This document shows positions 6,514 to 7,777 of a stretch of 33,737 bases of DNA, in pieces. The notes below the pieces were generated by a model, which ran no database searches, was not told where the DNA came from, and worked only from the letters and a program-made list of their open reading frames with translations. Origin of the DNA: a virus; the IMG/VR virus record IMGVR_UViG_3300041991_000043, positions 1-33,737 of that record; one strand, written 5' to 3'. Made by a program: the position numbers and the translations under genes. The first letter of the stretch is position 1, and every line of letters begins with the position of its first letter.

Positions 6514-7251
6514 ATGGCAACCCGTGCGAAAGCAACCCTTCCCGTGAACTATAACGAGCAGTTGGCTCGTGAAGCAGCGGAAATCAGCAAGCGTATCGCT
6601 ACACCCTCTGGGGACCGCGTTCGTTTCAACTCCAATCGCGGTTTTGTTACCCCCGACGGCAACGAAGGCGAGGAACTCGAAGTCGTCATTGTGGACTTCA
6701 TGTCCAGCAACCTGTTCTATGACGGCCCGTTTGATCGTGACAAACCGCAGCCCCCGGCGTGCTTTGCAATCGGGCCCGAGCCGAGTTTGCTCGTTCCGAG
6801 CGATAACAGTCCGAACAAGCAAGCGGAAGTCTGCACCGTGTGCCCGAACAACCAGTTCGGCTCGGCCGGCAAAGGCAAGGCCTGTAAGAACACGCGGCTG
6901 TTGGCGGTCATGCCTCTGGCAATGGATGGTGGTGAATCGCCCATCTGGATCATGTCTGTACCTCCAACGTCGATGAAAGCCTTTGATGGCTATGTGTCGA
7001 CTTTGGCTTCCAAGCACAAGACGATTCCGGTGGGGGTTGTTACCCGCATCACGTTGGACCAAACTGTGCAGTTCGCTGCGCCTCGGTTCACAGTCGTTCG
7101 TCCTTTGGATGGCTCAGAGATTGGGACGTACATGGCTAACCGCGAAGAAGCACGCACGCGTTTGGCGATGGAGCCGGATGTATCGCAGTACGTTCCGCCG
7201 GCGCAAACCGCACCTTCTCGCGGTCAGCCGATGCGTCGCGGCGTGCGCTAA
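6514..7251 (+). CDS. zinc-binding protein, candidate ssDNA-binding protein
   Basis: A 245-residue protein starting after CCAAGGAGAATCATCG. The centre contains Cys83 and a knuckle C107TVC110 ... KACKN (Cys124) inside NNQFGSAGKGKACKN, a likely zinc site. The flanking regions are rich in beta strands (LEVVIVDFMSSNLFYDG; PVGVVTRITLDQTVQFAAP). The C-terminal 30 residues are flexible and basic (SRGQPMRRGVR), unlike the acidic tail of classical SSB. Beta-rich core, zinc and position between polymerase and nucleotide genes suggest a single-strand-binding protein analogous to T4 gp32, but no OB-fold can be proven by eye. The alternative is an unnamed DNA-metabolism protein. Confidence 0.55.
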   Translation: MATRAKATLPVNYNEQLAREAAEISKRIATPSGDRVRFNSNRGFVTPDGNEGEELEVVIVDFMSSNLFYDGPFDRDKPQPPACFAIGPEPSLLVPSDNSPNKQAEVCTVCPNNQFGSAGKGKACKNTRLLAVMPLAMDGGESPIWIMSVPPTSMKAFDGYVSTLASKHKTIPVGVVTRITLDQTVQFAAPRFTVVRPLDGSEIGTYMANREEARTRLAMEPDVSQYVPPAQTAPSRGQPMRRGVR

Positions 7252-7258
7252 GCTTTAC

Positions 7259-7337
7259 GAGGTCTAAGCTGGATGGTTTCGACACCACAGCACCAGCCGT
7301 GTAAACTGGAGGGGGGAAAGGCCCCTAGACCTCACCA
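7259..7337 (+). ncRNA. cloverleaf-like RNA ending in ACCA (degenerate tRNA-like)
   Basis: Starting eight bases after the previous stop, the DNA can fold as a tRNA-shaped cloverleaf. The acceptor is GAGGTCT (7259-7265) with AGACCTC (7327-7333), seven perfect pairs, followed by A and an encoded CCA (7334-7337). The D-type stem is GCTG (7268-7271) with CAGC (7288-7291). The anticodon-type stem is CCAG (7293-7296) with CTGG (7306-7309), plus a C-A mismatch. The T-type stem is AGGGG (7310-7314) with CCCCT (7322-7326), a seven-base loop directly against the acceptor. Against a working tRNA: the T-loop is GGAAAGG, the base before the presumed TGT anticodon is G, there is no variable loop, and the D-loop is 16 bases. 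An alternative fold pairs GCTGG (7268-7272) with CCAGC (7293-7297), giving a three-way junction. Confidence 0.35.
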
Positions 7338-7374
7338 ATCTACCTTTATTTTCACTTTCATCTAGGAGTTTGAA

Positions 7375-7725
7375 ATGGCCCGTCCGAAAAGCGTTATCCT
7401 CACCCCGACCGAAAAGAAGCTGGCTTTGGTCACCACCAAACAAGCCATCAAAGAAGCCAAAGTGCATCTCGCTGGCCTCATGAAAGACCAAGCCGCTATG
7501 GGCAAAGCCCGCGATCAGTTCTTGAAAGCAGCGGCCCGTGAATATGCGGCCAAACTGGCTGAATACGAGCGGACTTACAAAGCCAATACGAAGACCGTCA
7601 CCAAGAGCATCAAAGAAAACCTTGCGCTCTTGTCCAAGCAAGAAGCTGATCTGCTGAAGCTGTCGCCTGCGGTCGCCACTTCGCTGCCGCCGGCTGAAAA
7701 GGCGGTTCTGACCCCCACCGAGTAA
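7375..7725 (+). CDS. lysine/alanine-rich helical protein (116 aa)
   Basis: The ATG at 7375 has a good ribosome binding site (CTAGGAGTTTGAA). The protein is nearly all helix, rich in Lys and Ala (TTKQAIKEAKVHLAGLMK; EYAAKLAEYERTYKANTK) and probably coiled coil, with the peptide LTPTE at both ends (residues 10-14 and the C-terminus). High charge and helicity would suit nucleic-acid or protein scaffolding, but I recognise no family. It stands alone between a structured leader (7252-7374) and an intrinsic terminator, so it may be its own expression unit and strongly expressed. Confidence 0.7.
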   Translation: MARPKSVILTPTEKKLALVTTKQAIKEAKVHLAGLMKDQAAMGKARDQFLKAAAREYAAKLAEYERTYKANTKTVTKSIKENLALLSKQEADLLKLSPAVATSLPPAEKAVLTPTE

Positions 7726-7743: not shown

Positions 7744-7777
7744 GGCCCCAAGCTAGCTTTGCAGTTTGGGGCCTTTT
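7744..7777 (+). terminator. intrinsic terminator
   Basis: GGCCCCAA (7744-7751) pairs perfectly with TTGGGGCC (7766-7773) around a 14-base loop, followed by TTTT and a T-rich stretch. It lies just after the lysine-rich protein stop and just before the dNMP kinase gene on the same strand, so it probably reduces rather than stops transcription into the genes that follow. Confidence 0.8.

Follow-up and report, generated by a model that had tools for sequence, protein, structure and literature searches.

The spacer analysed here lies in the IMG/VR virus record IMGVR_UViG_3300041991_000043, which was studied in full (33,737 nucleotides, hereafter the window), and it raises the question of why a phage message should fold into the shape of a tRNA between two protein-coding genes. 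The upstream gene (6514–7251, plus strand) encodes a protein of 245 amino acids (phrog_27714) whose function is not known, and the downstream gene (7375–7725, plus strand) encodes a lysine-rich protein of 116 amino acids that is probably a coiled coil and belongs to no known family. An intrinsic terminator (7744–7773, plus strand) closes the lysine-rich gene, and a hairpin with a T-run follows this gene in most relatives as well. The length of the lysine-rich protein varies among relatives through repeats in its middle (KLKELEKAH-like). The closest named phages are distant (KPP25-like, 37% identity); KPP25 has an analogous lysine-rich gene, again with a similarly placed terminator, and only 16 nt lie behind its homologue of the upstream gene. 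The spacer of the window contains a real, conserved and undescribed tRNA-shaped RNA element, one that is absent from Rfam and lies where gene annotation skips.

The cloverleaf and its rarity

At 7259–7337 of the plus strand, the sequence folds into a cloverleaf with a 7-bp acceptor and three arms, for which homologues were found in two other loci, L018 (1938–2016) and L031 (518–592). The acceptor strands GAGGTCT (7259–7265) and AGACCTC (7327–7333) pair at all seven positions, an assignment made from the predicted fold and the comparison of homologues, and are followed by an ACCA tail (7334–7337) that is present in all three loci. Arm 1 (7268–7291) consists of a GCTG/CAGC stem around an inner hairpin, TGGT-TTCGAC-ACCA; its stem is identical in L018, while L031 has an unrelated hairpin instead. 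Arm 2 (7293–7309) has a CCAGC/ACTGG stem, in which one pair is doubly compensated relative to L018, and a 7-nt loop, CGTGTAA. Arm 3 (7311–7326) is a G-rich/C-rich hairpin adjoining the acceptor and is represented by GGGGGTAGGGCCCCC in both L018 and L031. Behind the ACCA lies an A/U-rich, unstructured stretch (7338–7368) that includes the ribosome-binding site AGGAG, as read from the sequence.

The sequence-only reading from which this work started had described four stems in tRNA order with ACCA at the right place, and its letters, coordinates and pair counts all proved accurate (acceptor 7/7, D-like 4/4, anticodon-like 4/5 with one C·A mismatch, and T-like 5/5), the T-like stem being AGGGG/CCCCT in the register given then or GGGGG/CCCCT in the minimum-energy fold. 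Its further proposal of a nested minihelix ending in ACCA (7268–7295) was dropped because this structure is not conserved in L018, which has AACG at the positions corresponding to 7292–7295 and in which the fourth inner pair becomes C·A.

Folding energy by itself is weak evidence for the element, as the 79-mer has a z-score of -2.17 (5 of 200 shuffles were equally good) and the z-score is -0.08 once the flanks are included. A composite criterion was also applied, comprising a 7-bp acceptor in which no more than one pair is G-U, a three-branch minimum-free-energy fold, a body of 66–83 nt and ACCA directly after it. With both strands scanned, 7259–7337 was the sole match in the window, and 30 Markov-shuffled windows gave one match in total (~0.03 expected by chance); the composite object is thus present beyond chance expectation, though modestly so. 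With the ends fixed, L018 and L031 each yielded a minimum-free-energy cloverleaf in 2 of 4000 shuffles. It is the comparative evidence that establishes the element as real, since L018 and L031 have the same structure at the same place.

Homologues, compensating changes and departures from tRNA

Relatives were found through the upstream 245-amino-acid protein, which led to 14 viral loci and one MAG contig (L018), whereas L031 was found through the downstream lysine-rich protein. The contig of L018 is filed under a Bacteroidetes MAG and has the gene order of a phage contig of this clade, so the MAG label tells little about the host. The L018 element aligns with that of the window without gaps over 79 nt, with 60 of the 79 positions identical, and its conservation equals or exceeds that of the flanking gene (73% at the nucleotide level). 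In L031, the flanking gene is 92% identical to that of L018, and arms 1 and 2 of the element are unrelated in sequence. Its 75 nt fold as GAGTCCC, three hairpins, GGGACTC and ACCA, a perfect cloverleaf and the most stable of the homologues (z-score -3.66, with none of 200 shuffles as stable). A covariance model built from the window and L018 only recovered L031 (32.2 bits, E = 6e-6, 148 kb searched) and gave no other convincing match, with no further copy in the window, the contigs of the relatives or KPP25, and with only the MAG's own copy among 296 genomes from the phylum of the MAG that contains L018.

The acceptor is paired at 7/7 positions in the window and in L031 and at 6/7 in L018 (95% of all acceptor cells), and four of its seven pairs (2, 4, 5 and 7) have changed on both sides across the three homologues, compared with zero or one double change when the partner strand is slid along. 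Pair 5 forms the series U-A, U-G, C-G, a path that would be expected of an RNA and not of a DNA inverted repeat. Three pairs show double compensation when the window is compared with L018, a result that 19 randomly placed substitutions equal at P ~0.004; a column-shuffle control on the alignment of three sequences was not extreme (33–40 of 500). The sequence-only reading had named the loss of pairings in relatives without compensation as the outcome that would speak against it. Wherever the element is present, the alignment shows compensation instead, and in L004–L008 the element is gone as a whole.

The element is like a transfer RNA in its cloverleaf order, 7-bp acceptor, encoded CCA and size of 75–79 nt, but unlike one in having neither a T-loop nor U33, in its enlarged arm 1 and in a 13-nt region within arm 2 of L031. 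The T-loop consensus UUCRANY is absent beside the acceptor, where the window has GGAAAGG or GAAAGG and both L018 and L031 have UAGGG, and position 33 is G in the window and in L018. The earlier judgement that this is not a working tRNA agrees with the searches, as neither ARAGORN nor Rfam gave a tRNA match in the window, L018 or L031. No Rfam family reached its gathering threshold in the window and none was convincing at E up to 10, and the C4 covariance model, applied to the window spacer, L018 and L031 with E allowed up to 10, matched none of them. Three candidate assignments were rejected: a ZNFX1-AS1_2 match in L031 lay far under its gathering score, a tRNA-Sec match in L007 reached 22.2 bits against a cut-off of 47, and for tmRNA both ARAGORN and Rfam were negative, with similarity limited to the short motif GGTTTCGAC.

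Searches with parts of the element were similarly unproductive. The exact motif GGTTTCGACACCACAGC matched in unrelated contexts only, the arm 2 motif gave zero matches and no new relative, and the arm 3 motif, where present in unrelated phages, forms a plain hairpin without the acceptor strand and ACCA after it in the contexts shown. The hairpin core GGGGTAGGGCCCC is also present in the unrelated phages L046, L053 and L055, with three copies within ~100 nt in L053. Comparison with the DNA of named phages and plasmids returned nothing meaningful.

A candidate RNase P signal in a fast-evolving spacer

The most likely of the readings considered, held tentatively, is that the element is a cis-acting, tRNA-like RNase P processing signal that splits the message and leaves the transcript of the lysine-rich gene with a structure at its 5' end. 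The polycistronic phage mRNA would fold into the cloverleaf, in which the acceptor and the third arm would stack into a helix of ~12 bp that runs into single-stranded ACCA; the RNase P of the host would recognise this helix together with RCC(A) and cut between 7258 and 7259 of the plus strand. The predicted cut would release the upstream message of the 245-amino-acid gene and would put the lysine-rich gene on a separate transcript, bounded by a closed structure at the 5' end and by the intrinsic terminator at the 3' end, while a second, later cleavage within the A/U-rich sequence behind 7337 could release the 79-nt RNA as well. Here we infer the recognition by RNase P, the cut and the effect on expression.

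Bacterial RNase P reads the G1-C72 pair, an unpaired base at -1, a stack of ~12 bp and RCCA, and reads the positions of arms 1 and 2 little. Constant across all three homologues are G1-C72, a C at -1 that faces the discriminator A73 unpaired, an A at -2 and, in the predicted folds, a stacked helix of ~12 bp with single-stranded RCC(A) behind it; arms 1 and 2 can be exchanged. The RNase P signal is supported because the constant features are those that the enzyme reads and the variable arms those that it reads little. The conserved RNA structure, its ACCA, its position and the terminator are direct observations. Among the roles first suggested for the element, that of a tRNA mimic or of an RNase P target splitting the message therefore has the best support as regards cloverleaf, G1-C72, C at -1 and ACCA, with the cut itself a prediction. 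RCCA-dependent cleavage of an unusual substrate by RNase P is documented (PMC12710915), and both phage M3 RNA (PMC11143913) and C4 RNA (PMC5320573) are RNase P substrates. Against the RNase P reading stand the want of a T-loop in arm 3, a feature normally contacted by the specificity domain of the enzyme, the small number of homologues (three) on which it draws, and the distribution of the element among relatives.

The spacer evolves fast among these relatives. L004 has no element and its next gene follows after 21 nt (L004:3239–3259), a spacer suggestive of a deletion of the array between repeats; short direct repeats of ATCAACG flank the element array of L018 (L018:1932–1938 and 2087–2094). 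L005–L008 have no cloverleaf but carry element 2, a helix of GGAGAGCAGC/GCTGCTCTCC and then ACC, which in L018 and L031 sits after the cloverleaf and whose helix in L018 differs by paired changes. In L007 (3239–3345) and L031 (595–695), the second element has an outer helix of GGAGAGCAG/CTGCTCTCC and then CACC, enclosing a T-arm-like CAGG-TTCGACT-CCTG; it is shortened in L005, L006 and L018, with the outer helix kept or compensated. L009 has a perfect 12-bp hairpin of GGAGAGGGGAGG/CCTCCCCTCTCC with a 7-nt UUUGAAU (TTTGAAT) loop, followed by ACC (L009:3255–3288), and this looks like an acceptor/T-arm minihelix; its shape is that of the smallest RNase P substrates, which favours the RNase P reading. 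The relatives nearest the window thus repeatedly show a helix with ACC behind it. Other hairpins, with no ACC behind the helix, occur in L010 (on a contig shared with L001), L011, L012 and L014, and the genes abut in L013 and L015. As relatives L004–L008 do without it, the cloverleaf is dispensable, and as some relatives have neither element nor ACC (no element in L004, L013 and L015, no ACC in L010, L011, L012 and L014), the clade can do without processing.

Hairpins of unrelated sequence lie in the spacer of most relatives, and those of L010 and L012 resemble terminators or attenuators, as might be expected if the element were no more than a generic 5' leader structure with a protective or regulatory effect on the lysine-rich mRNA, the tRNA shape and ACCA being incidental. 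We regard this as doubtful, since such a leader would not need to keep the three-arm junction, the 7-bp closing stem and ACCA through the arm replacement seen in L031.

It is also unlikely that the element serves as a free tRNA-like small RNA of 75–79 nt, released by RNase P and 3' processing and acting in trans as a C4-like antisense RNA or as a decoy for tRNA-handling enzymes. The precise tRNA size of 75 and 79 nt, the long unpaired runs in arms 1 and 2 that are invariant between the window and L018, the end of window/L018 similarity at ACCA with none further downstream, and an A/U-rich stretch that would suit a 3' cut are all in keeping with such an RNA, but the replacement of arms 1 and 2 in L031 leaves no conserved antisense or binding sequence, and close relatives are without the element. 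We give little credence to the more specific proposal that the phage releases a translation-dead tRNA mimic as a decoy in trans for RNase P, for CCA enzymes or for a defence nuclease of the host that cuts tRNAs, with arms swapped between phages. A decaying phage tRNA gene is very improbable: the T-arm-like hairpin of element 2 in L007 and L031, with its sub-threshold tRNA-Sec match, and the arm 2 loop of the window, which presumably resembles the loop of tRNA-Thr(UGU), would fit it, but a remnant should gain neither compensatory changes nor a better fold, the most stable homologue (L031) is the least tRNA-like in sequence, and none of the three gives a tRNA match.

If the RNase P reading is right, the phage has its operon message cut by the ribozyme with which the host matures its tRNAs. 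The exchange of two of the three arms, with the acceptor, the third arm and ACCA kept, also makes the element a natural test of the minimal requirements of RNase P.

Relation to known viral RNAs

The element is an undescribed RNA that resembles the C4 RNA of phage P1 or phage M3 RNA in that it is probably a non-tRNA substrate of RNase P. In phages P1 and P7, the C4 antisense RNA is ~77 nt long, has three stem-loops and arises when host RNase P cleaves a longer transcript (PMC5320573). Unlike C4, the element lies in a replication operon of lytic type, forms a closed cloverleaf with ACCA, has no match to the Rfam C4 family, and has arms without the conservation that antisense pairing would require. 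In phage M3 RNA and in polycistronic mRNAs cut by RNase P, a non-tRNA phage RNA or mRNA spacer is likewise the substrate (PMC11143913), a likeness of substrate type in which the element's own cut is predicted. The tRNA-like structures of plant RNA viruses (TYMV, TMV) are likewise viral tRNA-like folds that end in CCA, and they are cleavable by RNase P (PMC11143913, PMC12710915). Those structures, however, are genomic 3' ends with pseudoknotted acceptors, whereas the element described here is a true cloverleaf within an internal mRNA spacer of a DNA phage.
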